64,000 bases of DNA from Cephalotus follicularis (taxonomy: Eukaryota > Streptophyta > Magnoliopsida > Oxalidales > Cephalotaceae), in contig BDDD01001458.1 of the NCBI GenBank assembly GCA_001972305.1, positions 62,001-126,000 on the forward strand, written 5' to 3'. The translations under genes were made by a program, and so were the position numbers. Of the stretch, positions 3,346 to 61,893 are shown in pieces. Within the stretch, counting starts at the first letter, position 1. Each line of letters starts with the position of its first letter. The notes under the pieces were generated by a model. It searched no databases. It was not told where the DNA came from and saw only the letters and a list, made by a program, of their open reading frames with translations.

Positions 3346-6102
3346 TATAATACCCTGCTTGCCTGTACGTATTTTTCTTACGGGTTTTATCTGTTTTGTT
3401 TATGTATTTGTCCGTTTTATGTTGGGTTTATGTTTTGGGCTGACTGATACCAGCCTTAATTTTTGGGCTTGTTAGTATGGACTTTGCTATTGGGTAAAAT
3501 TAGTCACATTATTAATACTACAAACTAATTTATAAATACATAATTATAATCTTTTAATACAAATTATTTTTAAAATCCCTATTTCTTTTATTTCCATAAT
3601 TCCTTATTTCTTTCCTTCCTTATTTCTTCTTCCTTTCCTATTCTTCCTTCTCCTCTCCCGAATTCTCTTCCTCCCTCATTACTTCCACACGGCAACAATG
3701 TTCTCCTTCCTTATCAACATGATTTTGTCCCATTTGTTTCCTTATCCTTCCCTCAATCCCCTCTTCTTTCCCGTTTGGTCTCCTTTTGTTATATATGTAT
3801 GCCAAAGACATTGTTTCTGCCATATCTCTCTCTTTGCTGTGATCGCTGTCGAATCTGTAGTGTCATTGGGGCTGTGATTTTGGTGTCTTCTTACTCCATT
3901 AGTAAGGTTAGTTCATCAAAGTTCCATTCAGTAAATGTTTTATTGTTAATGGTATAGCACTGTCAAAACTTTGAATGTATATTCTCTTCTTGATTCTGTC
4001 GAACAACTGTGTTCTCCTTCAGTTTGGGTCACCATTGCAGGTTAGTTGTTGTCCTAATGTGATGGTTATGTTGTTAGTTTTATCAAGAATTCATTTTGGC
4101 ATGTATTGGTTGCTAGAGATGGTTTTGTTATGGTTTCGACATTCTTGTTCTTCTGTCAAATAATCCTATGTTAACAGCCATCTGTAGACATCTAGGAAGT
4201 GTTATATAATCTGGCTTTGATGCATGTAATCGTGATAAGTGGACAAAATTGGATTAAGTATTGGTATGCTATGGTTTAAGTCCCTGTCACATTGAAATGA
4301 TTCCCTGTCAACATGTTGCTGTCGAATTTAGTGTTATAACATTGTTTTACATGCCATATAAGGTTGTTTTTAATATTGGTAATCTTCTAGTGTCAAAAAA
4401 TCCGAGTCTTCGCTGTTAAATTGCACAAAATTGCACTGTATTGCTGTTCTGTTACCCAGAGCAGTCGACTGCCCATATGAACAGTCAGCTGTTTAGTTTG
4501 AGTAGTCGACTACCTTGTGCAAACAGTCGACTGTCTTGTGTTGAGTAGTTGGCTGGACCCTTGATTCAGTCGACTGCTTGCATGTCCAGGTTGAGTAGTC
4601 GACTGCCACCCCTTGTATAGTTGACTGGATTCTTGAAACAGTCGGCTGGATTGTCCTGTAAACTTCTGTTTTCATCCGTTTGTTCTTTCGATGATCCGGG
4701 TCTATTCTAAACATCATTATGATTGTGTTTTATGTTCAAAATGAATTTTAGACCCTTATTTGAACATTGTTATGTTGAATAGATTATTGTGATACGTGAA
4801 GCAAATTAAGTTTACCGGATATTCGTAAGTTAATCTGTGATCGCATAAGGTACGGATTTTCATTCCTTGATAAACTCTTACTGATTCTGTTATGTTTTGA
4901 GAATAAATACAGATTCTTTGTTTTGGGTTATTATTCGGTTTTATGAATATGTTTCCTTTTGGTTTATGAACTCCGTTATATTTGGATTTTGAAAATAAAG
5001 TCACTTGATGTTTTATGAGGTAAATATTTCTGACTTTATGAATTCAGTTATGATGTGTTTACGAAATGGTATGCAATCATCTCTTTATTGTGAAATTAAA
5101 TGAGTTGATTTTTCCGATTATGAAAGCATGTGTTTATATCGTTTGAGAACGATTTATGATTATGTTTGGAAAATATTTCTACGTATTTTAAATTGATTTG
5201 ATGAAATCAAGTTTTTGAAATGGTGAAATACTGAGCTTTTTTTAACCACCTGTGGGGGTACCATAGGCATGCTGTGAGCCTGGCACGGGGGCATGACACT
5301 TGCCGTAATGGTGTGATTTGTTTACGACGTCTCTCTGGGATATCCTTGGATAGGATTTGTGATAGAGGCGTATGGATCAATCCTAGTTATATGTTTTGGG
5401 ATATGTTTGGGATATGAGGATTGTAAGTGTAGTGCCGTACACTGCAATTACATTGGCAATGTGGGTGTTGCGAACCCCATGCTACTATGTGTTTCTGATA
5501 TGTTATGGGTTTTTGGTGCTCAGTTATGGAACTTATGTTTTGAAAAGCTTCGTGTATGTTTTGAAAGTTATGGATCCTATGTTTTGGAAAGGTACACTTT
5601 ATGGTTTCAAAGTTATGAACTTGTTTTTATATGTTTTGCCGTGGGCATTCATAAAGTATTGTGAAACTATTTTAATGCTTAAGATTTCAGTTTTAATGTA
5701 CTTTTGAAAATGTTCCTGCTTTAAAATATTGTTTACTGTTTTATATTCTATATCCGTACTGAGGTTTGCTCAGCCCCGTTTTTGTTTCCATGCGACAGGT
5801 TATCAGGAGCAAAGGGGCAATGTGTGATGAGAGTGACTCCCATATGTTTGAGGATCGTCTAGTAGCTGATCCCTTTATGTTTATGTGGTCATAGTGGAAC
5901 CATTTAATAAACAATATGTTCATTTTAATTTATGACTTTTGGGATTATGAATAAGTTTCAGTTATGATAAGTTTCAGTATGTTTTTGATTATGCTTGAAA
6001 CCATCACGTTTTTAATAAAGATGAACGTTTTTGATATGATATGATATGTTAAGTTTCCGTTATATGCACATGTGGCGACTCCCACAGATCGGGGGTGTTA
6101 CA
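3346..6102 (+). repeat. Gypsy B 5' LTR
   Basis: Matches 31857-34653 along its length and ends GGGGGTGTTACA just before the PBS. It starts TATAATACCC where the 3' copy has TGTAATACCC, so the terminal TG has mutated to TA. Length is 2757 bp against 2797 bp for the 3' LTR; the difference comes mainly from a TC microsatellite and an extra motif block in the 3' copy. It holds a TATA-like ATATATGTA near 3791, a CAGTCGACTG cluster at 4461-4650, and long AT-rich stretches. It should act as promoter and polyadenylation region. Confidence 0.95.
4461..4650 (+). repeat. CAGTCGACTG palindrome cluster, B 5' LTR
   Basis: About eight copies of CAGTCGACTG and close variants (CAGTCAGCTG, TAGTCGACTG, CAGTCGGCTG) spaced about 20-35 bp. 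The cluster lies about 0.67 kb downstream of the TATA-like sequence, at LTR positions near 1115-1305. Confidence 0.9.
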
Positions 6103-6107
6103 GTTTA

Positions 6108-6119
6108 TGGTATCAGAGG
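6108..6119 (+). other. Gypsy B primer-binding site
   Basis: TGGTATCAGAGG begins five bases after the LTR end. It matches the plant tRNA-Met primer-binding consensus TGGTATCAGAGC except for the last base. Confidence 0.85.
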
Positions 6120-6271
6120 ATAGGCTTTGTTCCTTAGAAGACCTAACTAGGTTTGACTTGTGAGCTCAGGTAGACTTGGGTTAGGACTGTTATGTTTTGG
6201 CCTTTCTGATATGTTTTCTGTTTTGATTTTGTGTTTCGGTTTGATATCACGTATTTCAGTTTCTTTCGTAG

Positions 6272-7590
6272 ATGGTACGCACAAGAAACACTCCTCAGAG
6301 AACTGCAACAGCTGGGGCTCGAGATGAAGTTAGAAACGAGCCTTCTGTGGAAGAGTTGGTTCGTCAGGCAGTTGCTTAGGAAGTGAATCGTGTTATGCAA
6401 CAACAAAATCGGGAACAAGTTGTTGAGGAGAATGCTCTGGCAGATGTTCAGAGGGATATGGAAACCGGGGATAGGCATGGCACACCTACTCATGTTTGGC
6501 TTGAGCGGTTTCAGAAACAGAGGTCGCAGTCTTTCAGTTCGGCTGTGATACCAGTGGATGCTGAACACTGGATAGCACATATGGAGAAGATTTTTAATGT
6601 TCTGAGGTGTGATGACCAGCAGAAGGTAAGGTTGGCGGCTTACAAACTCGAAGGGGACGCCCAGAAATGGTGGAATACTCTGAATTCGGCTAAGGGTGAA
6701 GGTTATGCAGATGCTTTGTTATGGTCTGAGTTCCGGGAAGTCTTCTATCAGTAGTATTTCCCCACTGCTGATAAGGAGGCTTATGCTAGAGAGTTCGTCA
6801 ACACCAGGCAGAAAGTTGGAGAAACGGTTTCGGAGTTCTTGGCCCGTTTCACCAGATTTGATGGGTTGCTGGATCCGTAGCGGGGTCAGCATCAGAGCAA
6901 GCTGAAAAGTTCAAGTGGAAGCTGCATTACCAGTTTAGAGGAAAGATAATAAACTCCAAGTTTGCGGATGTAGCTGAAGTTGCTAATGCTGCGAAAAACA
7001 TTGAATTGGAGAGATTGGATTTCCAGGCAGCACGCCAGGAAGAGGATAAGAATCGGTATAGGAGTGAACAAGATTCTGGACAGCAGGGCAAGGGTCAAGG
7101 CAGTTCATGGAACAGGGGCAGGGGAGGTAAACAGCATAAGAAGAATCACAACCAGAATAAAGATGGTAATCAACAGCGTCAGCAAGGAAATGATCAGAAG
7201 AATGCACAGGGAGCTGATGGGGGTAACGCCGATGTTCAGATTGCTAGATGTGATGCTTGTGGTAGGTATCATCCAGTCGGTACCTGTTATAAAGTCAGTG
7301 GGGCCTGTTTTGTATGTGGACAGATGGGATACTTCGCGAAGGATTGTCAGGATCCTCGTGCTAAGGAAAGGAAGGGTAATGGTGCGAATGCTGGGCAGCG
7401 CAATGTGGGAGGCCGAGTCTTTGTAATTACGACTCATCAGGCAGCTAATGCTCGAGGTATGGTTTCGGGTTTTATTTCTGTTGGTAATCGTAGAGCTTAT
7501 GTGTTATATGATAGTGGATCGACGCACTCGGTTGTAGCAAGATCTTTTGTTCGGCATCTTGGAATGCCTTCATAGTTGTTTGATCCGGCT
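6272..7590 (+). pseudogene. Gypsy B gag, zinc knuckle and start of protease
   Basis: Begins ATG with MVRTRNTPQRTA, the same start as A. Gag domain motifs: AEHWIAHMEKIF, LEGDAQKWWNTL, WSEFREVFYQ. In-frame stops occur near 6377 (TAG) and at 6752-6754 (TAG), and a frameshift lies between about 6860 and 7000. The nucleocapsid carries CDACGRYHPVGTC and then CFVCGQMGYFAKDC, in which the zinc-binding His of the CCHC motif is replaced by Tyr. The protease start VLYDSGSTHSVVA (D-S-G) follows and ends in a TAG at 7573-7575. The product would assemble the particle; this copy is dead. Confidence 0.92.
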
Positions 7591-10400: not shown

Positions 10401-10560
10401 ACAGCCGACTGGTGAAATAAACCAGCCGACTGTTGCACTAAAGGGGGAGGCAGTAGACTGGCGTGAGGAACCAGCCGACTGACCATTGTCGTAACACTTG
10501 GCACAGACTGTCAGTATAGGCAGTCGACTACCAGGGAATGGCAGTCGAATGGATCGTGCC
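10401..10560 (+). repeat. CAGTCGACTG cluster 1, D1 3' LTR
   Basis: Copies such as CAGCCGACTG, CAGTAGACTG and CAGTCGACTA spaced about 20-40 bp. They lie 220-375 bp upstream of the TATA-like sequence at 10776. Confidence 0.88.
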
Positions 10561-11385: not shown

Positions 11386-11605
11386 AAAGCCGACTGCTCA
11401 GAGAAGCAGTCGACTGACAGAGCTTTAAGTCGACTGGAATGTAATACCAGTCGACTATGCATGCGATAATTACCCATAACAGTCAACAATAAAAGGAATG
11501 AAGTCGACTGCATGGCATTCGTGATGAACAAGTAGACTGCCTGGGGATGGCAGTCGACCGCCTAGGAAATCCAGCCGACTGTTAAGAGAAAACAGCCGGC
11601 TGTTA
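11386..11605 (+). repeat. CAGTCGACTG cluster 2, D1 3' LTR
   Basis: About nine variants including AGCCGACTGC, CAGTCGACTG, CAGTCGACCG and CAGCCGGCTG, at LTR positions about 1150-1370, downstream of the TATA-like box. Confidence 0.9.
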
Positions 11606-13250: not shown

Positions 13251-14542
13251 TGATGGATTCAGATATACCGAGTCTAGTGCCAAAATGGACTCAGGTGTAA
13301 AGGGTGTAGAATAAAACTTTAAATATACAATCATGCAGCGGAAGAACACCCAATAAAACATAAACCATTCCATTATGACACGTCCACAGATCACATGGAT
13401 CACCACAACATCAACAGAATTGAATTAGTGTCACCATTGCAAAACAATGGTGGCACACAAGCATGGCATAAGGAAGAAGGACCAAGAATTTATACCAGTG
13501 GGTGTTGGCTCCTTCGTTCTTAGCCGCTACAAGCTTGAGTAGAATCCCTTTGATCTTCTCCAAGACTCAGAAACAACAAGTAATCCAACCAGCAAAAATG
13601 AAAGTGCTTGAACTCACTCTCTCACTCACCTAGCTTAGAGAAGGAGTATTGATTATGACCAATGAAGTCAATAATCAATCCACCCTAGATAAGCCTTTGC
13701 TTGGTGTTTATCAGAAGAAGGTACACACACTCGCAGAGAAGAACTCGAGGTCAATTGCCCAGCAAAAATGTCTTAACCTCTTTCTTCCATTTTCTTCAGA
13801 AATACTTATAACCAGCCTCCAATTCTCTCTCCCAATCTCCCATTCACTTAGGATCATGGCCTTCACTCCCTGGGAGTCCGAAGCCATGATTCCCACGTTT
13901 TTAAAACGTGTAGATACAAAAGAAACCGGCTAAGGATGTGAGAGAGGTAGTGCCCACGAAGTGAGATCGTGCACTGGTTGCACGTTCTGCTCAAAGACGT
14001 CGACTCCTTTCAAAAAGACGTCGACGCCTTTGCAACGTGGCACTAAAGCACATCGATGTTTTCTAAAAGACATCGACGTCTTTATCAGGGAAAAGCATCC
14101 ACGTCTTTCTAAAAGACATCAACGCCTTTTGGCCAGTCAAGCATAAAGAGTCTAACTCTTGTACCCTTCAAATATTGGTTAAGTAAGATCAAGCATAAGT
14201 GTTTCCACAAAGTGCAAAATCCACATAACCGATATTTTATACCAAGACTTAATATGTCCAACATATTAAAGATCTAATCATTATAAGGCAGGGACCCTTT
14301 AAAAAATCTTGGTTATCAGAGAGGTGTTCATAAATTATCGAAATACCCATCGGGTCCGGTTTAGCCATTCTAAATGATCCCAGACCATTTAAATGCTCTC
14401 GGAATAATATCTAATATTATCCAGATGGAAAAATTTAATCTAATTAATTTTTCCATAATTTATTACACACCTCATTAACCCTAGATTTTCTAAGTCGTCA
14501 GTTCATGTGTACTATAATCCCTTGTCATACTTGGCCCCCGAT
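13251..14542 (-). repeat. Copia C 3' LTR, truncated
   Basis: Matches 27659-28949 of the 5' LTR with scattered differences. It begins TGATGGATTCAG (LTR end on the minus strand) and is cut by D2 at CCCGAT. The remaining roughly 870 bp of this LTR are absent from the window. It contains a GACGTCGACG cluster at 13993-14130 and a TATA-like TTATAAGTA at 13803-13813 (minus). Confidence 0.93.
13993..14130 (-). repeat. GACGTCGACGTC cluster, C 3' LTR
   Basis: Six or so copies of AAAGACGTCGACTCCTTT, GACATCGACGTCTTT and related forms, 180-330 bp upstream (minus strand) of the TATA-like sequence at 13803-13813. Confidence 0.88.
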
Positions 14543-14708: not shown

Positions 14709-14868
14709 ACAGCCGACTGGTGAAATAAACCAGCCGACTGTTGCACTAAAGGGGGAGGCAGTAGACTGGCGTGAGGAACCAGCCGACTGACCATTGTCGT
14801 AACACTTGGCACAGACTGTCAGTATAGGCAGTCGACTACCAGGGAATGGCAGTCGAATGGATCGTGCC
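14709..14868 (+). repeat. CAGTCGACTG cluster 1, D2 5' LTR
   Basis: Same copies and spacing as D1 10401-10560; upstream of the TATA-like box at 15084. Confidence 0.88.
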
Positions 14869-15693: not shown

Positions 15694-15913
15694 AAAGCCG
15701 ACTGCTCAGAGAAGCAGTCGACTGACAGAGCTTTAAGTCGACTGGAATGTAATACCAGTCGACTATGCATGCGATAATTACCCATAACAGTCAACAATAA
15801 AAGGAATGAAGTCGACTGCATGGCATTCGTGATGAACAAGTAGACTGCCTGGGGATGGCAGTCGACCGCCTAGGAAATCCAGCCGACTGTTAAGAGAAAA
15901 CAGCCGGCTGTTA
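15694..15913 (+). repeat. CAGTCGACTG cluster 2, D2 5' LTR
   Basis: Same as D1 11386-11605; lies in the part of the LTR downstream of the TATA-like box, ending with CAGCCGGCTG. Confidence 0.88.
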
Positions 15914-23960: not shown

Positions 23961-24172
23961 TAAATTCATGTAATGACAATTATACATTTTCGTATAAAAT
24001 TATTATTCAATCATGCAAGCCTTTCAAAATGGTTATCACTCTTTGGAAATCAACCATAATGTATATCACAGTAATAATGCACTCATATACTCAGAATACA
24101 TCTAAGATCGTTTCTAGGGTCGTTTCGGGTCTAACGGGTCCCATTTGAGCGAAATTCTACTGATCAGGGGAA

Positions 24173-24518
24173 AGGCGTCGATGCCCATCCGAAAGGAGTC
24201 GACGTCTTTATCATACCAGGGAGTATCAACACGCGAGTCTTGGTTTGGGAAGGTGAAATCCGACCTATTAACCCCTCATGAAATCGAATATCACTCTCAA
24301 AACGTGTAAGGGATGCTACTGGTTAACAGCAACATATCCAGAATATCAAACTGAAATCAAACAGGTGATTCCCAAGTGGCTAAAATGGCCATCTGAAACG
24401 AATATTACAGTTCAACAATTTCCCAGAAAAGGCATCGATGTCTTTTATCAAAGCATCGATGTATTTCACATTTTCACACGAAGGCATCGACGTCATTTTC
24501 ATAGGCGTCGATGTCTTT
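24173..24518 (-). repeat. GACGTCGACGTC cluster 2, LTR E
   Basis: Copies such as AAGGCGTCGATGCC, GGAGTCGACGTCTTT, AAGGCATCGATGTCTTTT and GGCGTCGATGTCTTT, at LTR positions about 1075-1420, downstream of the TATA-like box. Confidence 0.88.
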
Positions 24519-25264: not shown

Positions 25265-25425
25265 AAAGGCGTCGACGTCTTTCCTTAGACGTCGATGTCT
25301 TTTCCAATTTTGTAAGAAGGTGTCGATGCCTTCACAAAATGTCGACGCGTATGCTTATGCATTCACGTGTACCCTGGTTCACAAAGGCGTCGATGTCTTT
25401 TCCAAAGACGTCGATGTCTTTATCC
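25265..25425 (-). repeat. GACGTCGACGTC cluster 1, LTR E
   Basis: Copies such as AAAGGCGTCGACGTCTTT, AGACGTCGATGTCTTTT and AAAGACGTCGATGTCTTT, 300-460 bp upstream of the TATA-like box. Confidence 0.9.
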
Positions 25426-26312: not shown

Positions 26313-27646
26313 TCTAGCAACCTAGATAAGGAAATATAAGCATGAGTTAGCATTTATTCCAATTTTAATATATGACAACCATAACACTTGGTCTCTAGTG
26401 CTTATGATCCCTCCCACTATTCTAATCATATCCCATACCCCCATATGGAATTCGAGAAGTCCAACTTCCTAGTGGGGATTGAAATCCATTGCAATCACAT
26501 TATAGCCTCAGCTAGGGCATGACAAACTATAATATATCCAATGGGTAGGCTTTCTTGCCAATTTGTATCTAATACAAGATCCAATCATAGTATTCGGCCT
26601 TAGATTCAATATGGCCTTAGCTAGGGCATGACAAACCATCAGAATCTTGATAAGTCCAGTACCCACAATTTTCATTGGAATGCACTAGTTTTAACACCCA
26701 CACGTAGGCGTGTCCAAGTGCTAAAACATAGCCACCCTTTGCGGTGCCCAACACCGACGTTGACATAATCTTATTACAGACCTTTAAAGATAATAAATAA
26801 ATTAAAATCCATCCACACTTAGAAAACGATAAACTAGGTCAAAGTCCTTTTCGGGCCATCCATTGTGCTTAAGATCTATATTATATCCAATATAATAAAA
26901 CCTCAAAATAAACAAATACCATATATGATAACCAATTACACAATTTAATTCAATGATTGTTAATTGACCAAACTCCCACTAAATCAAGAAATGATTTTTA
27001 ATCTTCCAAGTGCCAAAATGTTATAAAATCCAATTTTATACAAAAAACAGTTTTTTTTTTTATAAAAGACGTCGACGCCTTAGAAAAGGCATCGACGTGT
27101 TTTCTGGAAAAACATGAACAAGGCGTCGATGCAAAAACAGAGCATCAACACGTTTCACATGTACAGTTGAAAAAGGCGTCGACGTCCAAAAAATAACATC
27201 GACGCGTTTCACAAAATTTGATCCAGACATCGACGTCTATAACGAACGTCGACGTCTTTACTGGGAATTTGACATGACATCGACTTCTTACCAAAGACGT
27301 CGACGTCTTTTCTGGGAATTTGACATGACATCGACGTCTTACCAAAAACATCGATGTCTTTAGTCCCCTGGGCATTTTCTGCATTTCGAAAAATACTGAA
27401 TTCAATGGTTTAGACTTTGGTATACCATTCTGGCATTGCAAAATGCACTATGCATGTTCCAAACTTAATTCTAAACACATTTAAACAACATTCCTAGCAC
27501 AAAAACACAATGAAATCCAATTTCATGCAATTTTCATTAAGGCACTTAGAAAATTTAGTTTGATCACAAAAACACATCCAATGATTAAACTATTAATCAG
27601 TACATCATCTAAGGCATACATATTCAATTAAGGATGATGTGGGACG
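26313..27646 (-). other. Copia C untranslated leader
   Basis: About 1.3 kb between PBS and gag with no credible reading frame. It holds a palindrome cluster at 27062-27362 and a poly-T run at 27050. Copia F has a leader of similar length once solo LTR I is removed. Confidence 0.8.
27062..27362 (-). repeat. GACGTCGACGTC cluster in copia C leader
   Basis: About ten copies, among them AAAGACGTCGACGCCTT, AAAGGCGTCGACGTCC, GACATCGACGTCT, AAAGACGTCGACGTCTTT and AACATCGATGTCTTT. A 46-bp block with GGGAATTTGACATGACATCG is present twice. The cluster lies in transcribed sequence outside the LTR. Confidence 0.92.
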
Positions 27647-27658: not shown

Positions 27659-29816
27659 TGATGGATTCAGATATACCGAGTCCGGTGCCAAAATGGACTT
27701 AGGTGTAAAGGGTGTAGAATAAAACTTTAAATATACAATCATGCAGCGGAAGAACACCCAATAAAACATAAACCATTCCATTATGACATGTCCACAGACC
27801 ACATGGATCACCACAACATCAATAGAATTGAATTAGTGTCACCATTGCAAAACAATGGTGGCACACAAGCATGGCATAAGGAAGAAGGACCAAGAATTTA
27901 TACCAGTGGGTGTTGGCTCCTTCGTTCTTTGCCGCTACAAGCTTGAGTAGAATCCCTTTGATCTTCTCCAAGCCTCAGAAACACCAAGTAATCCAGCCAG
28001 CAAAAATGAAAGTGCTTGAACTCACTCTCTCACTCACTTAGCTTAGAGAAGGAGTATTGATGATGACCAATGAAGTCAATAATAAATCCATCCTAGATAA
28101 GCCTTTGCTTGGTGTTTATCAGATGAAGGTACACACACTCGCAGAGAAGAACTCGAGGTCAATTGCCCAGCAAAAATGTCTCAACCTCTTTCTTCCATTT
28201 TCTACAGAAATACTTATAACCAGCCTCCAATTCTCTCTCCCAATCTCCCATTCACTTAGGATCATGGCCTTCACTCCCTGAGAGTCCGAAGCCATGATTC
28301 CCACATTTCTAAAACATGTAGAATCAAAAGAAATTGGCTAAGGATGTGAGAGAGGTAGTGCCCACGAAGTGAGATCGTGCATTGCTTGCACGTTCTACTC
28401 AAAGACGTCGACTCATTTCAAAAAGACGTCGACGCCTTTGCAACGTGGCACTAAAGCACATCGATGCTTTCTAAATGACATCGACGCCTTTATCAGGGAA
28501 AAGCATCGACGTCTTTCTAAAAGACATCAACGCCTTTTGGCCAGTCGAGCATAAAGAGTCTAACTCTTGTACCCTTCAAATATTGGTGAAGTAAGATCAA
28601 GCATAAGTGTTTCCACAAAGTGCAAAATCCACATAACCGATATTTTACACCAAGACTTAATATGTCAAACATATTAAAGATCTAATCATTATAAGGCAGG
28701 GACCCTTTAAAAATCTTGGTTATTAGAGAGGTGTTCATAAATTACTGAAATACCCCTCGGGTCCGGTTTAGCCATTTTAAATGATCCCAGACCATTTAAA
28801 TTCTCTCGGAATAATATCTAATATTATCCAGATGGAAAAATTTAATCTAATTAATTTTTCCATAATTTATTACACACCTCAATAACCCTAGATTTTCTAA
28901 GTCGTCAGTTCACGTGTACTATAATCCCTTGTCATACTTGGCCCCGATTGAGGTCTAGGGTAAGGCTATGTGTCAACCCTAGATAGTACCTCAATGGCTA
29001 ACATATCTGATCATTACTAGAACCTTTGATAACCTCCCCAGAAATCTAATTTCCAGTCTACCTTAACCTTGGCCAAGGATTTCTTAAGTCCAAAGTATAA
29101 TCAGACAATAATAGGGCCGATCACCTTTGCTCAGGTGTGACAATCCCTTATTGCGCACTCACTTATATTCGTATAGATTCGATCATACCCAAAGACCACC
29201 CGATTTCCAGCGCTGCGCAAGGACTGGGTAAGGTGGAGATCAAAGCATAACCGTCTCCATACAATATTGAGTAGTCGCTCAGGTCTAAGGATCAGATGAG
29301 TTAAAGAACTCGCTAAGTGATAATCACTTATACACAACCGCAACCAGCAGGAATCACTACTGACACGAGAATAGCGACTCTCCAAACAGTGTCTCCTACG
29401 CGGGTCCTGTTCAGTGTACACGCTCCCAGCGCGTACCCCGTATTTGCCCTAGTGTCCAACATAGATGGTAGTGAGAGAATCCACCCCCCGATTCCATGAG
29501 CAGGCAACATACGCGCAAGTCTATCCGGTTCACTAATGCCCACAAAGTGAACCTATGGCTTGGAACAAGTTTGACACAAGGAATAAGGTAACCAATCTCA
29601 CAGCCTCCATGCTAGGCATCCAACCTTATGTCAGGGCATCACAAGTGTAAGCAGGTAAATACTAAACTACTTCAATTAAGTGATAAAACACAAGTGATAT
29701 AGCCATAACAAAATTAGCATGCATCAAATATTTATACAAGAATAAGGTAGTTCCATACATGGTAAGATATAATATGACAACCCATCTAATGGGTTGTCGG
29801 GTCACTATATCTAACA
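27659..29816 (-). repeat. Copia C 5' LTR
   Basis: 2158 bp. On the minus strand it begins TGTTAGATATAG (29816) and ends CTGAATCCATCA. The TGATG duplication follows at 29817. It contains a TATA-like TTATAAGTA at 28211-28221 and a palindrome cluster at 28397-28540. The region 28950-29816 is similar in plan to 43810-44720 of the copia F LTR, including GAGTGCRCAATA and GGGATYGTCACACC. Confidence 0.93.
28397..28540 (-). repeat. GACGTCGACGTC cluster, C 5' LTR
   Basis: Six copies such as AAAGACGTCGACTCATTT, AAAGACGTCGACGCCTTT and GCATCGACGTCTTT, 180-330 bp upstream of the TATA-like sequence. Confidence 0.9.
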
Positions 29817-32367: not shown

Positions 32368-32992
32368 TGTGATCACTGCCGAATCTGTAGTGTCATTGGG
32401 GCTGTGATTTTGGTGTCTTCTTACTCCATTAGTAAGGTTAGTTCATCAAAGTTCCATTCAGTAAATGTTTTATTGTTAATGGTATAGCACTGTCAAAACT
32501 TTGAATGTATATTCTCTTCTTGATTCTGTCGAACAGCTGTGTTCTCCTTCAGTTTGGGTCACCATTGCAGGTTAGTTGTTGTCCTAATGTGATGGTTGTG
32601 TTGTTAGTTTTATCAAGAATTCGTTTTGGCATGTATTGGTTGCTAGAGATGGTTTTGTTATGGTTTCAGCATTCTTGTTCTTCTGTCAAATAATCCTGTG
32701 TTAGCAGCCATCTGTAGACATCGAGGAAGTGTTATATAATCTGGCTTTGATGCATGTAATCGTGATAAGTGGACAGAATTGGATTAAGTATTGGTATGCT
32801 ATGGTTTAAGTCCCTGTCACATTGAAATGATGCTCTGTCAACATGTTGCTGTCGAATTCAGTGTTATAACATTGTTTTACATGACATATAAGGTTGTTTT
32901 TAATTTTGGTAATCTTCTAGTGTCAAAAAATCCGAGTCTTGGCTGTTAAATTGCACAAAATTGCACTGTATTGCTGTTTTGTTACCCAGAGC

Positions 32993-33200
32993 AGTCGACT
33001 GCCCATACGAACAGTCGGTTGTCTAGTTTGAGTAGTCGACTGCCTTGTGCAAACAGTCGACTGTCTTGTGTTGAGTAGTCGGCTGGACCCCTGATTCAGT
33101 CGACTGCTTGCATGTCCAGGTTGAGTAGTCGACTGGACCTGTTGTGTAGTCGACTGCCACCCCTTGTATAGTCGACTGGATTCTTGAAACAGTCGGCTGG
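32993..33200 (+). repeat. CAGTCGACTG cluster, B 3' LTR
   Basis: About ten variants of CAGTCGACTG; one more repeat block than the 5' LTR cluster. Confidence 0.9.
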
Positions 33201-34905: not shown

Positions 34906-37584
34906 TGTAACACCCCCGAAAGGTGGGAGCCCTTACAGGACAAACAACATATCTTATCAAAACATAGAAGAATTTAAAGCCCAATTTTATTAAAAACGTG
35001 ATGGTCTTAAACATAAACTGACAGTATAACTGAAGCTAAACATAGTCTAAAAGCTTAAACATAAACCAAGAGTCATAAACTGAAACCATCATATTGTTCA
35101 TAAAACAGGTCCTAACATGACCATAAGACATCATAGCATAGTAGGATCAATCTCCTAGATGATCCTCAACTTAGGTGAACACTCTCATCACACATTGCCC
35201 CGGTGCTCCTGATAACCTGCCTCATGGAAAGCAAAACGCGGCTGAGCAAACCTCAGTACGAATATATAATGTAAAAACCGTAAATGATAATTTACAAGCA
35301 GTAAGATTTCAAAAGTTAACTCGAAACAGAAATCTTAAGCAATAAATAAGTTTAACATTCTTTATAAAATTGCCTCAGCAGTTCGTATAAACCAAAACCA
35401 TAACTTCCAAAAACATAAGCATACCTTTCAGAACATATGGTTCCATAACTGAGCATCATAACATATCACATATCAGAAACACATAGAAGCAAGGGATTCG
35501 CGACATCCACATTGCCAAATAGAATAGAAGTGTACGGCACTACACAAACAATTTCCATATCATAACATATCACATAACATATAACTAGGATCGATCCATA
35601 CGCTTCTATCACAAATCCTATCCTAGGATATCACAGAGAGGCGCCGTAAACTAATCACACCGTTACGGAAAGTGTCATGTCCCCCTGCCAGGCCTACGAC
35701 ATGCCTATAGTACGCCCCATAGGTGGGTACAAAAAGCTCAGTACTACACCACTTCAAAACATTGATTTTATCATAATCAATTTAAAACACATAAGAAACG
35801 GTTTTCCAAAACATATTTATAAATCGTTGTCAAACTATGTAAGCACATGCTTTCATAAACGGAAAAATCAACTCATTTAATTTCACAATAAAGAGGTGAT
35901 TTCGTAACACATCGTAAACATTCTGAATTTATAAAGTCAGAATATTTAACTCATAAAATATCAAGTGACTTTCTCTTCAAAATCCAAAACATAACAGAGT
36001 CATAAACCGAAAGGGACATATTCATAAAAATGGATTTATTTCGAATAAATCAGATGTCCAAGAAGAGAATTATCCGTACCTTATGCGATCACAGAATATC
36101 TTACGAATAGACTGATTAATTCCAACTGTCCCACATAGCACAATAATCTATATAATATATAAAATATTCATATAAGAATCTAAAAATCATTGTGGGCATA
36201 AATAAGAATTATAACAGTGTTTTAAAACAGACTCAGATTCAATGGACGGACAAACGGATAAGAAAATATGGAACAGGAAATTACTGGACAATCCAGCTGA
36301 CTGATACATGACTCCAGTCGACTGTACAAAGGGTGGCAGTCGACTGTACATCGTAGACAGCCGACTACACAAACTGGAGTGCAGCTAGTCGACTGTGATA
36401 GAGGTCCAGTCGACTGTGCAAGACAAAATAGCCGACTGATTCACAAGGAAGCCAACTACTCAAGGAAAAATAGTCGACTGTTCATATTGGCAGCCGACTG
36501 TCCTGGGTGACAGAAAACAAGAATATGACAGTTATATGCAATTTTGCTCTAAAAACTTTGATTCCACAATACCAGTGTACTAAAAACAGTTAAAAGGACT
36601 CTATATGGTATTTAAAACAGTAACATAACACTGAATTTAAAAGAGGTACTCAACAGTGACCATCTTAAAGTGAGTGATGAACTCAAACCATTTCATACAT
36701 ATGCATAATCAAATTTTCTGTCCAAAAACCACTGTCCTTATTCAAAACTGGATTTACACAACTTTATTAAGATGTTTAAAGGCTTGCTAATAGACTCATA
36801 AACAATTGACAGAACATAAAAAGGCAGGAACCCAAAACCAAATTCTAATACCAATGTAGACATGCAAAACGGATTTAAAACAATACTAAAGAGAATAACC
36901 ATCACAGCAAAGCAATAGGCTAACTTGCAATGGCGACAAAAGCTGTAGGATAACACAGAATTCTCAAGGCTTAAACCCGGTTGTTTCACAGAAACCAAAA
37001 GGAGAGAAAACATACGAGTTCAAGGATTGCCAAAGCCATACATAACAAAATAAAACCATTCCTAAACTGATCCAGAAAGAACAAACCTGACTTGATGATC
37101 CAATTACACAGAGAGTAGAACGAATTCTCACTTGCAGGTTCGGCTATAACCCAGCAAAAGAGAAGAGAATGGTGCAACACAATGAACAATGGCATACTTA
37201 AATGGAAAAGAGAAAGCAGTTTCGGCTAGGATAAGGAAACAAAATCTGATTAGATAAGAAAAAAGAGAGAAAAATCAGGAGATGGAACTGGAAGTTGGAG
37301 TGATTTCAGATGAGGGAGTTAAGAAAGGGAGAAGGAAATGGGATGGAGAGAGAGAAAAGAGAGAAATAAAAGAAACTAATTCAAAAATAAAAGATTTGAT
37401 TATTTACTAAATTAATTAAAACTGTTTTGCAATAAAATAACTTAAACATAACCCTTACCAAAACACATACCAACATACTCAAGGTCACAGCTAGTATCAG
37501 TCAGCCCAACATAAAGTAGACAGGCTACAAAGCAAAACAGGTTAAAAGTCTAAAATTATGCACACGGACAAACAGGGTATTACA
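34906..37584 (-). repeat. Gypsy A 5' LTR
   Basis: 2679 bp on the minus strand, starting TGTAATACCCTG (37584) and ending GGGGGTGTTACA (34906). Same family as the B LTRs but more diverged. A CAGTCGACTG cluster lies at 36290-36505. It faces the B 3' LTR tail to tail across 252 bp. Confidence 0.93.
36290..36505 (-). repeat. CAGTCGACTG cluster, A LTR
   Basis: About nine variants (CAGTCGACTG, CAGCCGACTA, TAGTCGACTG, CAGCTGACTG) at LTR positions about 1080-1295, the same place as in the B LTRs. Confidence 0.9.
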
Positions 37585-40343: not shown

Positions 40344-40690
40344 CAAAGACATCGATCCCCAGCCCCTGGACATCGATGTATTTTGCTTGAAATGCAGCAT
40401 CGTTGATTTCTGCAGCAAAGACATTGATGTCTTTCAAAGACATCGACGTCTTTGCCCAGGATTTCTCTTCTTTGAAGAAGAATCGATGCTGAACATCGAT
40501 GCGCATTTCCAGGACATTTTTGATGAAACACGTCGATGCCTTTATCCAAGGACATCGACGTCCTTAAGCTAGAACTCTATACAAATAGAGAAAGACATCG
40601 ATATCCTTCAAAGATATCGATGTCCTTCTACAGTTTTAAAGAAATACCCTAAAAGGCATCGATGTCTTCGGCCAAAGACATCGACGCCTG
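40344..40690 (+). repeat. GACATCGATGTC cluster, LTR L
   Basis: About ten copies such as AAAGACATCGACGTCTTT, GGACATCGACGTCCTT, GATATCGATGTCCTT and AAGGCATCGATGTCTT. Many outer CG pairs are changed to CA or TG. Confidence 0.9.
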
Positions 40691-41177
40691 CAAGGCTGAA
40701 TGGAATTTTAACTATTTTAAAGCTGATTTTCAACTCCTTTTCACATTGTCGCTTGACTGGAGCCTAACTTGAGGTATTCAAGCATTTGAAATACAGTTTT
40801 CAAAGATTGAATTGATAAATTGACAGGGTGACAGCTTGAGCCATATGCGACGATCCAGTGACTTTCACCAATCAGATAGATACTTCTCTTTATCTCGTTG
40901 GTTTGATTGTCACCATCTATTGGCTACTAACTGGTTGATTGATTGAGCCATAAGTGTTGTGAGTCTAAGTTCGGAACGTTGGATGCTCATTCCCATTTCT
41001 CCATTAGACATCACCACTTATCGGCATTTGTACTGATAGATTGATTGATTGTATTGTATGAATCTTATAGAGTGACCTTATGATTCATATCGGCATATTA
41101 GGCTGTCGACTCTGTCCACCTATTTCGTCGATCTTCTCATTTATTGTATTGACTGCTCCCTTACGATCGTATTTACC

Positions 41178-45128: not shown

Positions 45129-47142
45129 TGTAACACCCCCGGTTCGAGATCAGGATATTAGCCCCATTCCGAGTCGGGTTGTCACACAAAACTGAACTAA
45201 CAGAAACATGTCAAAATATCTTAATCTTTATCTTTAGCTAAGTCATCAAAAATCATAGTAAAGTCTCCAATTTAAGCAGATAAAATGAATTTTAGGTACA
45301 AAATCAAATTTAATTTCCAAGTTAATACGTGATGTTGTAAACATATTCTGATAACACAACATAATCTGAAAATCATAGTCTGATAAACATAACATTTCTA
45401 AAAGAATTAAACTCTAAGAAATCCTCAAACCATAGGCGTCTCTCTCATCACACTTGCCCATGCTGCCCCTGAATACCTGACGCATGAAAAACAATCACGC
45501 GGTTGAGCAAACCTCAGTACGGATATAGAAACATAAAACAGTTTACGAACAAAGCAGTTACAGTACGAAACAAAACGGTTACGAAACAAAACAAAACAGT
45601 TACGAAACAGATTTTGAACTAAACAGTTTACGAAATGAAACAATATTCAAAACAAAACAGTTTGTAAAACGAAACAGTATTTGAAACAAAACAGTTTTTG
45701 AATCTTTAAAAAAAAAAAGAATAGAACAATTCATAATAATCCAAATTATGCAATTGAAAATGGTATTCATGCAAAACCTATACATATATAAATAGATTCA
45801 CAAATCAGCACAAAATGAAAATATATCAAAGCATATCAGTTTTCAAACTTTTCCAAATCCATGTTTTATACTAAGAGATGCAATAATGGTTTAAATACAT
45901 GCATATATGCAAGGGGTTTGCAAAGCCCACATGCTCTGACGGAATGACGTGTACGGCACTACACAATCAATCCTCAGAATCTGTATCTGATAATAACTAG
46001 AGTCGACTCATACACCTCAGTTGGCCATATCCTATCACAAGATATTAAGAGACGCCGTAGACTAATCACACCGCTACGGAAGTGTCATGTCCCCGTGCCA
46101 GGCCCACGACATGCCTATGGTACCTCCATAGTTAGGAAACAAATATTTTCAGTATTTCAAAAATAATGAATTTATCGAAAATCATTTCTAAATATTGGTT
46201 TACTTCAAAACCAATTCAAAACATATCAGATAAAAAAAAATCAGCATACTTTCATAATTAAAAATTATGCTCTGTATCATAAAAATTAGCATACTTTCGT
46301 AAATGAAAATCATGCTCATAACAGAATTTATAAAATCACTAATATTCAACTTTACTCAAAAAAATAATAAAACCAATTTTGTTCAAATCATATCAAAACG
46401 AAGAATCCGTACGAAAAACATATATGAAATCATTTCAATAAAACCCCAAGGAATAAACCCAAAACGAAGAAATTCGGGCATTTTCACAGTCAGAAATCAA
46501 CTCATTTAACAAAATATATGATCATGCAAATTTTCGTAAACACATAACTGAATTTACAAAGTCAAAAATATTTATTTTCATAAAAATATTTAAAGCTGGC
46601 TTTATTTTCAAAATCCGTAGCATAACGAAGTTCATAAAATCGAAGGAATATCGAAGAACGAAAAATCCGTACGTAATCATTAAAAACAAAAGGAATATCA
46701 AAGAACGAATTTTCCGTACATATTCAAAATAAAACATAATTTAGTTCAACAAAATCAACTGAATTTATACTCTAACAAAATCCAATAGAGAGTATTAAAG
46801 AGCAGAATATCCGTACAATATCCCAAAAATAAAAACTGAATTTATTTCAATAAAATCAGATGTCCAAGAAGAGAATTATCCATACTTATTTTACAAAAAT
46901 AAGACTGTAATTTATTCTTTGACAAAATCAACAGGAGGGTATCAAAGAAAGAGTTATCCGTACCTTAGCTGCTCAAACCTAAACGAACACAGAATGAATC
47001 TAAAGCACTCTTGGAATCACCGTAAACTCCAACACAATTGTTATCAAAACCTATACGGACCAATCCAAACATTACCATAACATATAAACACAAAATAACA
47101 AATCAGCCAAAGAAAGGGTTGACATTTTGGACAAAGGTGTCG

Positions 47143-47400
47143 ATGTGCATGTCAAAAGCGGTGAGTCTTAATTAGAGGCGTCAACGATTTCAATGTATGA
47201 AAGACCAAGTCGCTTAGCAAGCGTCGACACAAATGTAGCATTAACCAGAGAAAGGCGTCGACGCTCAAAGAAACGCGTCGAGGTTTTAGGTATAAGTGTC
47301 GATGGGTAACAAAACAGTCGACGCTTACAACCCATGCATGTGTTTTAAAACCATTTTATACACACAAGCGTTGACACTTATGATTGGCGTTGACGCTTTA
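47143..47400 (-). repeat. GTCGAC motif cluster 2, LTR G
   Basis: Degenerate copies (AAGGTGTCGATGTG, AAGGCGTCGACGCTC, AAGTGTCGATGG, GCGTTGACGCTTTA) at LTR positions about 1045-1300. Confidence 0.75.
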
Positions 47401-48151: not shown

Positions 48152-48306
48152 AAAGCGTCGACAGTAAGACGAAAGCTTCGATGCTTAAGTCTGTTTATGC
48201 AAAAGGCGTCGACGTTTATGAAACACCTCGACGGTTTTACACCTTTACAAAACGATAAGATCACAACGCTAAAGAGTCGACCTTAGGAAGAAGGCGTAGA
48301 CGCTTA
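48152..48306 (-). repeat. GTCGAC motif cluster 1, LTR G
   Basis: AAAGCGTCGACAGT, AAAGGCGTCGACGTTT, CACCTCGACGG and AAAGAGTCGACC at LTR positions about 140-290. A weak TATA-like TTTAAAAGC lies at 47982-47991 between the clusters. Confidence 0.75.
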
Positions 48307-48444: not shown

Positions 48445-48790
48445 GGCGTCGACGCCTTTGTTGTGCATTGACGCCAATGTCCAGTTGAGTTACTAGGCGT
48501 TCACGCAAAGGGATTGCGTTAACACTGGAAAAACTAGTAGCTTTACACGTCCATGTCAAGAGGGCATCACGTCGAAGTCTAAACTAGAAAGTCTGCTGGG
48601 CATTAACTCTATGGAGAGCATTGCCTTAACACTGAAAAAATTAGGGGCTTTGCGCGTTAACGCCATGGGGTTTTGGCATTGACACGAAGACAAATGACAC
48701 TATGCACCTGTCTCATATTATATCTGGCATTGATGCCGTTTTGTAATGTGAGACACGTACACGTCAACGCCTTGCGTACACGTTGACGCC
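48445..48790 (+). repeat. GCGTCGACGC / GCGTTAACGC cluster, copia F LTR
   Basis: GGCGTCGACGCC, GCATTGACGCC, GCGTTAACGCC, ACGTCAACGCC and ACGTTGACGCC, directly upstream of the candidate promoter at 48811. One more copy, ACGCGTCGACGTC, lies at about 48904. Confidence 0.8.
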
Positions 48791-48810
48791 ATGAGGAGAG
48801 AGAAAGTCAA

Positions 48811-48822
48811 CACTATAAATAG
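48811..48822 (+). promoter_or_regulatory. Candidate TATA box, copia F LTR
   Basis: CACTATAAATAG, about 40 bp upstream of a CT-rich CTTTCTCTCTCTCC tract of the kind found near plant transcription starts. Confidence 0.6.
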
Positions 48823-54067: not shown

Positions 54068-54210
54068 GGTGCAGGGGGCAGCCGACTGCCACAGGGAGGC
54101 AACCGACTGGACTCCCCTAGTGAAGGTGGCAGCCAGCTGCTGTGAGGAAACAGTGGCTGTTTTGAGTGTCGGCAGAAACAGTCGACTGCCAAGCCATGGC
54201 AGCCGACTGC
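54068..54210 (+). repeat. CAGTCGACTG cluster 1, LTR I
   Basis: Five copies (CAGCCGACTG three ways, CAACCGACTG, CAGTCGACTG), 100-240 bp upstream of the TATA-like box. Confidence 0.9.
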
Positions 54211-54738: not shown

Positions 54739-55212
54739 GGGGCAGTCGACTATCCAGGGAGGACAGCCGACTGTCCAAGGCTGGTAGTCGACTGTTCGTG
54801 AGGAAAAGCCGACTGTCCAAGGAGAACAGCCGACTGGGCATTGGAGCCAGTGGACTGTTTGTGCCTGGAATTGCAGGTTTCTTCCTGTTGTTTGTATAGT
54901 CGACTGCCAGAGGAAGGCAACCGACTGTGGGTGGTGCAACCGACTTTTTTGGGTAACAGCCGACTGTCCACGTGTCACCCTACCAGATATGCTGGTACAG
55001 GTGGCAGCAAAGAAAGTGTATTGTGTTGGACCAGCCGACTACCTGGAGAGGGCAGCCGACTGCTAAGTGGGGGACAGCTGACTACCAAGGAGGGCAGCCG
55101 ACTGTTGGCATGGGACAGCTGACTGCCAAGGAGGGCAGCCGACTGTTGGTAAAGGGACAACCTCTATTGAAGGAGAACAGCCGACTGTCAGTGAGAAACA
55201 GCTGACTGGTTG
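54739..55212 (+). repeat. CAGTCGACTG cluster 2, LTR I
   Basis: About 18 copies by my reading: CAGTCGACTA, CAGCCGACTG, TAGTCGACTG, CAACCGACTG, CAGCTGACTG, often followed by YCCAAGGAG or TTGG. Motifs occur about every 20 bp in 54740-54850. Confidence 0.92.
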
Positions 55213-56120: not shown

Positions 56121-57193
56121 TAGTGTGTTCCGAGTGTTGTCCATGCCGTCGTGCCTATGAAGGGAACAATTGTTTGCTATTGAGTGTATTGATTGTCTGC
56201 CTTGACATGCCTGATTATTGTCCTTTGGGACGTGGCTGATCGTTATTGTGGAGTGATGGGTCCTTAGAGACCTGAGATTTTGTTGGCCGTTGTGCCGTTG
56301 TGATATTGTGAACCGTGTAGTGTGGTGATGTATTGTGACACTGTGGCCTGCGACCGTGTGGTCGTGGCATATATATATATGCATCGAGATATAGTATGTA
56401 CTGCATCATTGTGCATTCATATCATGACATGTTTTATCCTTGACCCTGGATCGCTTATATGGTTTTACCGAGTGAGGACAAAGGCTAACCCCCTACAACT
56501 GCAGTGTGTTTCAGGTTGATGCAGCCGTGGGTTGCTGTTGGGCTCCGAGGAGCAATGTGGAGTTTTATGATGTTTACTTTGAGAAATGTTTATGGAATAT
56601 TGTAATAAATGAATGGTTGTAATAAATGAATCGTGGTATTGATGGTTTTTGTTCATGCTCCGTTTGAGGGCAGTTAACCGTGATTATGTTTACTGTTGCA
56701 GCATGTATTATGGGATGCATGTTGCGTTATGATTCGGCTTATTTTTATGCTTCCGCAGGTTGTTAATGGATATGGAAAGTTTTAATTTTATGGTATTTTT
56801 GCATAAGCCGGATTTATATGTTAATTGCCACCACTTTAATATGTTGTTGTGAAACGGGGTGTGACAATATGGGCCGGGAGGTTGAATCTTGTATCGGATC
56901 TTACATATGGGAGAGAGGTCCTAATGTAAATTGGTACTCGTACCTCCTTATTCAGGTATTATGGTTTGTATGGCGAAAGTCAAGGCCATGGCATTGTGGA
57001 TAGATTCCGATCCCCACTAGGAAGCGAGAGGCTTCCCGAATTCCACATGGGGGTGTGGGATACGATTAGAATAGTGGGAGGAACCATAATTTCTAAAGAC
57101 CAAGTATTATGGCAATAATGTAATTGGAATGATATGCTAATAGACTCACTTTTGTTTCCTCTTATATAGGTTGTGTTCACCATATTCTGCAAT

Positions 57194-59233: not shown

Positions 59234-60553
59234 TGTCACACCCCGTTTACGATAAACGCAGCATTAAAGCGGTAAAGGCAATTAACACAACATACAGCTC
59301 ATGTAAAACCGTGAAATTTAAAACTTAAACCTTAACAAGGTACAAACAGTTGCGGAAGCACAAAACCATAAGCAGTAAACCGTAACGTGTGTCCCATACC
59401 ACACGCTACTCCAGTACAAATCGTTAAGCTAATCGCCCATAAAAACGGAGCGTGAAATACAGTACAAGTTTAAATTCCTTTAAGAACAGAATCAAAATAA
59501 CAGTACAACTTAAAAGCATAACCACAACAGGTTTGATGCACAACAGGAGAAGTAAAATAAAGAAAGCAACAACTGGATCTTCGCCCATGTCCGTCTAGCC
59601 AATCCACGCATCAATCTGAAAAGTAGGGGGTTAGCCGTTGTCCTCACTTGGCTAAAGCATAACAGCAGCTCAAGATTAAAATCAGTGCATGTCATGACAT
59701 GAATGCATAAATGATGCAGTACAGTGGAGACCCAGTTTATACATATATGAAAATACGTATATCAGTACAGTAAAATATCAGTGTTACATATATATAAGAA
59801 ATATATGTATACAATAACAGTGCAGTAGTAACCCGGCCAGGGCTACGTCAACAATCACAGTAATGTCCGTAAAGGACCAGTAAACAGTACAATACAGTAT
59901 GTCCGCATAGGACCACAACAGTCAGGATGTCCACATAGGACTACAACAGGCAGTATGTGTAACAACGCCAACTCCTGGCCCCACGCTACACTCCCACTCC
60001 GGCCCCTACATCAGGCAACCGAGCGAGACAACAGTACAGTGAGTTACCCAGCCATACTCCTGGCCCCTGGGTCAACCCTCCACTAGTCGGCGCTGGCAGT
60101 CTCCGCCATGCAACTAGTGGTTCAAGCACAATCACATAGCAATTCACAGAGCAACCAATGAATTCAGGCAGTACAGTACAGTAATCAGTAGTGATCGATT
60201 TGATCCACATCAGTCAAGTTATTTTCAAAATGTTTACAAAAGTGACACATTTGAAAATAGGTATTTTCTGTAGAAAATATCAGTAAACAGTTTCAGTAGT
60301 GTAAATCATTATCGGTTCGGTTGAAATTTCTTTATTTGGTCAATACATACTTTTGTACCCAAAATATCTTATTCCAAACACATGTATATATTTCTAAAGT
60401 GTTAAATCATTAGAAATTGTAATCAACACATAAACAGTACACAATCAGGCAGTAAACAGTACATATGCAATGCATACATATGCTCAAATGCACCCAAATA
60501 GGAATTGGGATCGTTTCGTATCATCCGAAGAAGAAAACAACAAACAGTAGAAA

Positions 60554-60906
60554 AGACATCGACGTCTTTCCCAAAGACGTCGATGTCTTCGAGTCATGCG
60601 TCGAAATCCAGGTCCTCAGTGTCAGCTTGTTCTTCTACAGAAGGAACCTTAAACGACAGCGTATCATCGAAAAGGCGTCGATGTCTAACTAAAAGGAGTC
60701 GATGCCTTTTTCAACAAAACCCAGGTAAGCAGCCTGAGTGTCGACGTCTTCCCAAGGACATCGATCTCTCTCGGTCAGTGTCGAGGTAAAACAAGAAAGA
60801 CGTCGATGTTATTATAAAGGAGTCGACGTTTTAGGGTCTGGGTCCTTAAAACGACAGTGTATTACATAAAGGAGTCGATGTTATTCTAAAAGAAGTCGAC
60901 GTCATT
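60554..60906 (-). repeat. GACGTCGACGTC cluster 2, LTR J
   Basis: About ten copies (AAAGACATCGACGTCTTT, AAAGACGTCGATGTCTT, AAAGGCGTCGATGTC, AAGGAGTCGACGTTTT) at LTR positions about 1170-1520. Confidence 0.9.
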
Positions 60907-61384
60907 TCCAACAGTGTCGTCTTCCACCCCACAACTTATAAAACAGTAACTTTATCATTCCACAATCATGCATAACCACAGGTAAACATGGTAAGAAACC
61001 CACATGCAGATACTTAACACATACCTAACATGTCATGGCATCAAACCAGTAACCAAAACAGTTCAAGAATCATGCATAAAATACACTCAAAGTCATAGAC
61101 TAAGCATGGATAATAACTTGAGATACAGTCATGGCTTTCCCCTACCTTTTGTTCCAAGTTAGGAACAGGAAGGTCCACCTCTTTTCGTTTCCAACAGGTC
61201 ACAGAAGCTCCAAGATCCTTCCCGTTGCTGCACCAGTGGTTCCAAGCTCCAAACTCCAAGCTCCAAGCTCAACAATGGTGGAAATGTTTTCTCTCCTTTA
61301 ATTTCTGATTTCTAATAATCACAGTGTCTCTCTCAGGTGTATGGTTCTTTCCCAAACAGTAGCCGAAGGTAAGGGGGTGAGGGA

Positions 61385-61396
61385 TGTATTTTATGC
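61385..61396 (-). promoter_or_regulatory. Candidate TATA box, LTR J
   Basis: Minus strand TGCATAAAATAC, between the two clusters, at LTR position about 685. Confidence 0.5.
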
Positions 61397-61737
61397 ACTC
61401 TTCTTTCTTTCTTTTGTGTTTTGCAGGCCACATGCATGTAGGGCACACCCACCTTCTGCATGCAGTCACTGCGTTGGTTTTTCTCCCTCCTTCATGCCAG
61501 ACAGTGCCCTTCCCTTCTATCCATCCATTGCATGTCCACTTGTTCCATTTCTCTTGCATGCCTTGCATGTCCATCCATACAAGTCACACTTGCTCACAAC
61601 TTCTGTCATGCAGGTTAGGGGGTAGGGTGCATGCCCAACACGTCCCAAGCCATGCCCCAAGGCGTCTGCAAAAGCCCCATCTCGATTCTCCCCTCGCACG
61701 TTTTTGTTAGCAGAGTAACATGCACGGCATTCGTAGA

Positions 61738-61893
61738 TAAGGCGTCGACGTCTTTCTAGAAGACGTCGATGTCTTTAATCAAAACCACCAAGAACGTCGA
61801 TGCCTTCGTCCAGGTCGATGTGCGTGGGCATGCAGCTTCGTGCGCTGTTTGCCACAAAGGCGTCGACGCGATCCAAAAAGGCGTCGACGTGTT
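61738..61893 (-). repeat. GACGTCGACGTC cluster 1, LTR J
   Basis: AAGGCGTCGACGTCTTT, AAGACGTCGATGTCTTT, AACGTCGATGCCTT and AAAGGCGTCGACGYG copies, 340-500 bp upstream of the TATA-like box. Confidence 0.9.

Follow-up and report, generated by a model that had tools for sequence, protein, structure and literature searches.

Short motifs in the long terminal repeats (LTRs) of stress-responsive retrotransposons, such as Rider, ONSEN, Tnt1 with its BII boxes and Tto1, put the element under a host factor (excerpts of PMC6762207 and PMC3316501). Motif arrays of another kind are the targets of VANC, described in excerpts of PMC5735166 and PMC10398659 as dense noncoding motifs of the same orientation that grow as tandem repeats and change in version. 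Among plant promoter motifs, PLACE holds RYCGAC as CBFHV (PMC7570135, in part), and GTCGAC, under the name CRTDREHVCBF2, is the low-temperature site of HvCBF2 (PMC4553201, in part). Here we describe arrays of GTCGAC-like sites in a window of 64,000 nucleotides from contig BDDD01001458.1 of the plant Cephalotus follicularis, which consists mostly of nested LTR retrotransposons. The arrays occur in elements of both gypsy and copia type. We read those in U3 (the upstream half of the LTR) as putative sites of a sequence-specific protein, most likely a host transcription factor, and suppose that they grew by tandem duplication, were kept by selection and were exchanged as modules; the probability of this reading we put at about 0.52. 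All results come from this one window, with about a dozen LTRs, several of them related.

Site versions and their arrays

The first-pass annotation of this DNA had claimed one family of palindrome clusters centred on GTCGAC, in two versions, shared by gypsy and copia LTRs. The clusters were confirmed: GTCGAC occurs 62 times, against 6.7 expected under an order-1 and 8.0 under an order-2 Markov model, while CAGTCGACTG was observed 12 times with 0.03 expected (Markov) and CGTCGACG 14 times with 0.13-0.16 expected. Fifty-eight of the 62 fall in arrays, whose limits were drawn after the sites had been seen; the other four lie at 9739, 21396, 41105 and 46002. The dinucleotide-shuffle control that the annotation had proposed was run in the window, and CAGTCGACTG with at most one mismatch was found 57 times, as compared with 0-3 times in each of five shuffles. 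Both claimed versions are present. "One family" was too simple a description, however, as there is a third version and as two clusters located within copia elements belong to gypsy insertions.

Type A, YAGYCGACTR, is the version of LTRs B, E, G, D1, D2 and J, all of gypsy type. Its arrays lie on the plus strand in the 5' LTR B (4462..4648, sites written YAGYCGRCTR) and the 3' LTR E (32992..33199, ten sites), and on the minus strand in the 5' LTR G (36294..36500), in register with E. LTRs D1, D2 and the solo LTR J carry two plus-strand arrays each, proximal and distal (D1, 10402..10551 and 11387..11602; D2, 14710..14859 and 15695..15910; J, 54079..54209 and 54743..55208). Type A sites numbered 10 in E, 9 in G, 15 in D2 and 22 in J, forming 8, 6, 8 and 14 pairs, respectively, at 19-22 bp; 60 shuffles of each of these four LTRs gave at most 3 sites and not one pair at that distance.

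Type C, AAAGRCRTCGAYGYCTTT, was found as the perfect 18-mer AAAGACGTCGACGTCTTT only once, its other sites being accepted at 1-5 mismatches. It forms minus-strand arrays in the 3' LTR (13993..14129) and 5' LTR (28401..28537) of copia C, in the copia C leader between primer-binding site (PBS) and gag (27065..27361, with a 51-bp tandem unit), and in distal and proximal positions of the solo gypsy LTRs K (24171..24518 and 25265..25421) and L (60552..60906 and 61738..61894). One further type C array, at 40417..40691, lies in sequence that an LTR search around 40.4-40.7 kb could assign to no LTR. A nested tandem repeat with units of 30-83 bp is found near it, at 39351-39578.

The third version, a looser GGCGTYRACGCC (GCGTYRACGC-like), occupies gypsy LTR I on the minus strand, in a distal (47137..47397) and a start-proximal array (48155..48303), and the inferred 5' LTR of copia F on the plus strand (48445..48790, 11 of 12 sites). 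In the upstream part of LTR I, 11 sites were counted where shuffles average 0.8, and in the copia F piece at 48442-48930 there are 12 where they average 0.7 and reach 3 at most. This copia F LTR was inferred from the primer-binding site and the sequence left between insertions, because its 3' LTR falls beyond the window. Its array ends about 20 bp 5' of CTATAAATAG, a TATA box read from the sequence at 48813..48822 (plus strand), and one site lies downstream, at 48907. Arrays sit inside LTRs of defined boundaries, and the sole clear TATA box seen downstream of an array is that of the inferred copia F LTR. The insertion of LTR I adjoins or splits a GGCGTCGACGCC site of that LTR (48445-48456). 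Of the locations given in the annotation, LTRs B, D1, D2, E, G, I, J and L, the inferred copia F LTR, and the LTR and leader of copia C do carry arrays. An LTR A does not exist in its own right: the LTR beside element A is that of B, and it is G that forms the 5' LTR of A.

Spacing, direction and conservation of the sites

Neighbouring sites are regularly spaced. Over 14 arrays, counting one copy per duplicated LTR, type A sites with at most two and type C sites with at most five mismatches, and spacings up to 120 bp, 57 of 88 spacings were 19-22 bp, with a mode of 21 bp (35/49 in type A, 22/39 in type C). Further steps recur, of 28-29 bp between type A sites and of 31 and 52 bp between type C sites. 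When duplicate LTRs were masked, CGACTG topped all hexamers with 16 pairs 19-22 bp apart, and no hexamer outside the motif had more than 7. Under the proposed mechanism, a single site would cover about 10-18 bp and sites would stand about 21 bp, or two turns of the helix, apart, so that bound proteins would face the same way and could cooperate. Helical phasing of the sites is only suggestive. Binding of a protein, its cooperation and host origin, and enhancer action of the U3 arrays on element transcription are what we infer.

The sites were at first taken as strict palindromes, a reading that was dropped once polarity had been counted. Read on one strand per array, type A sites have C or T at position 4 in almost equal numbers (32:31), and A at position 7 in 60 of 63. 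In the set used for polarity (duplicates omitted, namely LTR B and the 3' LTR of copia C; D1 used and D2 not), 25 of 59 type A sites match RYCGAC on a single strand, 22 are palindromic there and 12 match on neither strand; the corresponding figures for 48 type C sites are 26, 13 and 9. All 25 one-strand matches of type A follow the common direction of their array, as do 23 of the 26 of type C, the three exceptions being single sites in K distal, L distal and the 40.4-kb array. The probabilities of such agreement, 0.00001 for type A and 0.004 for type C, assume independent flips, an assumption that tandem duplication violates. Among ten site pairs of LTRs E and G, moreover, the wobble position changed six times and its mirror position never (p 0.011). 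The polarity counts and this asymmetry together indicate that the unit is directional, and that the palindrome is partly set by the base at the wobble position. RYCGAC reads on the antisense strand in E and G, but on the sense strand in D and J and in most sites of K and L; use of either strand in different LTRs is what an orientation-independent enhancer would allow.

One possible, narrower form of the host-factor reading, which we consider unlikely, is that the factor is an AP2 protein of CBF/DREB type, types A and C being directional RYCGAC sites, and the elements responsive to cold or drought. RYCGAC is present on at least one strand in 47/59 type A and 39/48 type C sites, and the agreement in direction just described (25/25 and 23/26) would follow, although tandem duplication can also yield a shared polarity. 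DREB proteins bind as monomers, and the symmetric outer flanks (CAG..CTG, AAAGRC..GYCTTT) are unexpected for a protein that does so. The third version does not fit either: most of its sites fail to match the RYCGAC core, those of copia F having GTTAAC, GTTGAC and GTCAAC instead. As to published sites, both GTCGAC and RYCGAC are listed for CBF proteins (PMC4553201, PMC7570135, in part), and the U3 of tomato Rider holds a CBF site, yet cold did not induce Rider (PMC6762207, in excerpt). For types A and C, the match to CBF/DREB sites is a real lead.

A role at the level of RNA, in which the sites form hairpins or duplexes in element RNA and act in dimerisation, packaging or small-RNA effects, appears very unlikely. 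Adjacent sites are mutually complementary, and many asymmetries are G-T compatible on one strand, as such a role would have it; that strand, however, is sense in E, G and copia C but antisense in D and J and, for the most part, in K and L. Selection has thus not favoured one strand of the transcript, and a lone type A site forms a stem of just 3 bp.

Conservation was examined in LTRs E and G, whose ten sites are in register, with steps of 20, 21, 21, 22, 21, 29, 21, 22 and 21 bp in E and 20, 22, 20, 22, 21, 28, 21, 22 and 21 bp in G; the decayed third site of G was positioned by hand from the E-G alignment. The two LTRs differ at 16 of 100 motif positions, 33 of 106 linker positions and 723 of 2401 positions of the remainder, and the motifs are thus better conserved than linkers (Fisher p 0.014) and than sequence outside (p 0.002). 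The motif mask was the union of the sites of both LTRs, and the ten register-set pairs also yield 16/100. Motif positions 2, 3, 4 and 9, chosen after the counts had been seen, show 0/40 differences. B and E flank a single insertion, and between them 5 of 90 motif positions and 89 of 2667 others have changed; here the motifs are unprotected, as expected once a copy is inert. The contrast between the two comparisons suggests that selection acted between lineages but not after insertion, and it would be selection on active copies that maintains the site core. Copies bearing arrays are both older and recent, LTR pairs being 95% identical in B/E and 99.5% in D1/D2.

The arrays also change by whole units, as tandem duplication would expand or shrink them: one 21-bp unit, present in E and absent from B, was gained or lost between the two. 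Tandem Repeats Finder reported units of 21 and 41 bp in J and of 51 bp in the copia C leader, while parts of E, K, copia C and the 40.4-kb array gave units of 19-22 bp. Linkers are more alike than shuffled sequence in E (0 of 500 shuffles reach the observed value), G (3/500) and J (0/500). One explanation for these findings is that the arrays have no function and are 21-bp repeats made by slippage during replication or reverse transcription, the palindrome itself promoting duplication. The tandem units (19-22, 41 and 51 bp), the likeness of the linkers in E, G and J and the unit that differs between B and E all agree with it. Three observations make it rather improbable: the linkers of D1 are no more alike than shuffled ones (0.259 vs 0.263; 304/500), yet its motifs remain; motif bases are better conserved than linkers between E and G; and copia C has similar arrays without shared flanks.

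Nesting of the elements and proposed exchange of arrays

A single LTR family, with the ends TGTAACGCCC and GGGGTGTGACA, comprises D, J, K and L, each of which carries two arrays, about 150-340 and roughly 800-1520 from the LTR start. By their 3' halves, D and K are sisters (quartet sites 72:15:7 in 751 columns). The array version does not follow this relationship: at similar slots, type A is found in D and J, and type C in K and L. The alignment of D with K runs from about 55 bp past the distal array to the LTR end, in pieces of 67-81%, and covers only 69 bp 5' of that array; K and L can be aligned over two segments of their 5' halves (about 62%). LTRs I and N are alike in the 3' part only. 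An exchange of U3 modules among gypsy LTRs, with a border near the distal array, is indicated by these alignments, and gypsy subfamilies may in this way swap modules bearing different site versions. Divergence among D, J, K and L in their 5' halves is too great for a tree to be built, and a multiple alignment failed to align the J arrays with those of D1.

Two related scenarios give the change of version another meaning. In the first, the arrays are target tracts for an anti-silencing protein that removes silent marks, as in VANC/VANDAL, and the versions follow changes of the protein. The mostly single polarity, the tandem units and the difference in version between sister LTRs speak for it. 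Against this, stop-to-stop frames of at least 200 amino acids (aa) in the nearly complete D2 are gag and pol only, besides a copia frame overlapping its edge; the binder is thus probably not encoded by D, although short or spliced genes could escape such a count. As motif and element class also differ from those of VANC targets, we regard this scenario as quite improbable. In the second, likewise unlikely, a genome-wide palindrome code is read in its several versions by one fast-evolving family of dimeric DNA-binding proteins, encoded by the host or by elements; gypsy and copia would carry arrays independently, and versions would switch in fixed LTR slots by U3 exchange. If true, such a code would amount to a system comparable to VANC, by which LTR retrotransposons are activated or freed from silencing in a sequence-specific manner.

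The sharing between gypsy and copia was supported by motif counts far above those of shuffles, and by copia C arrays that lack gypsy flanks. In matches of at least 60 bp, the copia C LTR matches the rest of the window (its own copies excluded) solely via its array, and the arrays of LTR and leader resemble gypsy LTRs within the array only; nothing therefore marks them as inserted gypsy pieces. The copia C leader, of about 1.4 kb, is also as long as the copia F leader minus solo LTR J. The annotation had considered that the copia clusters could be pieces of gypsy LTR, and this is correct for the array pairs at 24.2-25.4 and 60.5-61.9 kb, which lie inside copia elements in the solo gypsy LTRs K and L, but not for the copia C LTR and leader; as an account of the copia arrays in general, we think it hardly credible. 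In the copia F leader ahead of solo LTR J, no type C site was found. The copia arrays, which lack shared flanks, may reflect either convergence on a common factor or an ancient transfer. Three causes of the sharing had been offered. A bound factor fits best, with site cores better conserved than linkers between E and G. A repeat process is also at work, as seen in the units of 19-22, 41 and 51 bp and in the unit that E has and B lacks. As for copying between elements, U3 exchange is indicated among gypsy LTRs (D vs K), not between gypsy and copia.

Several points weigh against arrays kept by selection for a host factor and exchanged as modules. The 21-bp step also arises from tandem duplication alone, and the 31 spacings beyond the 19-22 bp peak fit a period of 10.5 bp poorly (R 0.33, best period about 11.5). 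A McDonald-Kreitman-type table of B-E versus E-G is not significant (p 0.07). No TATAWAW was found downstream of the array in gypsy LTRs B and E. LTR N (49392-52692) is without an array, having no type A, one type C-like and two third-version-like sites (1.2 expected by chance), and arrays are therefore not essential. The argument from slots is built on just four LTRs, and the history of the modules is not clear-cut, since D also aligns with L in mid-LTR (63-65%) and with J across the proximal array (60%).

The nesting order was worked out with target-site duplications (TSDs) read off the sequence. Gypsy B/E, on the plus strand (LTRs 3346-6102 and 31857-34653; TSD CCAAC), interrupts gypsy A/G, which lies on the minus strand (5' LTR G, 34906-37584; gag-pol, 3177 to 1). 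Inside B/E lie gypsy D1 (8520-12903, LTR 10235-12903; TSD TCGAT) and copia C (minus strand, from 13251), of which the 3' LTR spans 13251-14543 and the 5' LTR 27659-28950 or beyond, with the PBS at 27646 and gag at 26240. Copia C is cut by gypsy D2 (14543-21984, LTR 14543-17211) and contains solo LTR K (22679-25592; TSD CTTAC). The inferred copia F (PBS 52896; gag 57272) contains gypsy LTR I (45129-48444; TSD GGCAT/GGCGT) and the solo LTRs N (49392-52692; TSD CCAAT), J (gypsy, 53934-56866; TSD ATATG) and L (gypsy, 59234-62075; TSD TAAAC). In LTR N, the words CGCGTG and CAACGC recur weakly near 50.1 kb.

Pfam matches of gypsy type comprised gag, protease, reverse transcriptase, RNase H and integrase, with a weak chromodomain match (20.9 bits, below the cut-off of 25.1); those of copia type were gag and integrase. 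Of nine matches in a gag search, five, the nearest gag pieces, came from Cephalotus follicularis and covered 13-30% of the query at 86-94%; the other four, from Cuscuta europaea, were at 32-36%. D1 (8609-10327) and D2 (20266-21984) have an odd breakpoint in common at LTR base 96, which joins the internal region in D1 and copia C in D2; the 1719-bp copies are 99.94% identical, as compared with 99.5% for the D1/D2 LTRs, and either a recent rearrangement, gene conversion or an assembly artefact could be the cause. Two tandem repeats unrelated to the palindromes were seen in the 3' halves of LTRs D1 (50-bp unit, 4.2 copies, 12173-12382) and K (30-bp unit, 6 copies, 23406-23587), and an open frame of 270 aa without a Pfam match lies outside the assigned elements (37908-38720, minus strand).

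Distribution and comparison with described systems

Judged by title and start of abstract, no description of such arrays was found among the matches listed from the open-licence literature. A scan of viral contigs for type A pairs returned 16 loci, of which eight have at most two GTCGAC and the other eight 3-11, at a G+C of 0.54-0.71 and with at most three type A-like sites each; they were therefore taken as chance. The type C pattern had no match in that scan, none of the integrase relatives had arrays, and a repeat-peptide query made from open frames across the type C arrays met 589 candidates with no match at E 10.

How unrelated retrotransposons come under the same host signals is an open question, and the arrays could reveal the way in which one switch is taken up by different mobile elements. 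A site syntax common to gypsy and copia makes both the control of many families by one factor and the trading of U3 modules testable, and the arrays offer a defined probe with which the factor could be fished out.

Set beside the stress-responsive LTR promoters, these LTRs stand apart in having up to 22 sites each, a 21-bp step and three site versions, in both gypsy and copia elements of one genome. With CRT/DRE (CBF/DREB) sites they have in common RYCGAC, the directional core of most type A and type C sites; unlike those sites, they have symmetric extra flanks, are set in spaced arrays, and include a third version that lacks the core. The VANC/VANDAL targets of Arabidopsis, as excerpts of PMC5735166 describe them, are similar in being dense noncoding arrays of the same orientation that grow in tandem and change in version. 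The arrays described here are likewise tandem-grown and of one orientation, apart from a single site of opposite polarity each in K distal, L distal and at 40.4 kb; they differ in belonging to LTR retrotransposons, in their near-palindromic motif, and in that no anti-silencing gene was seen among the D2 frames of at least 200 aa.

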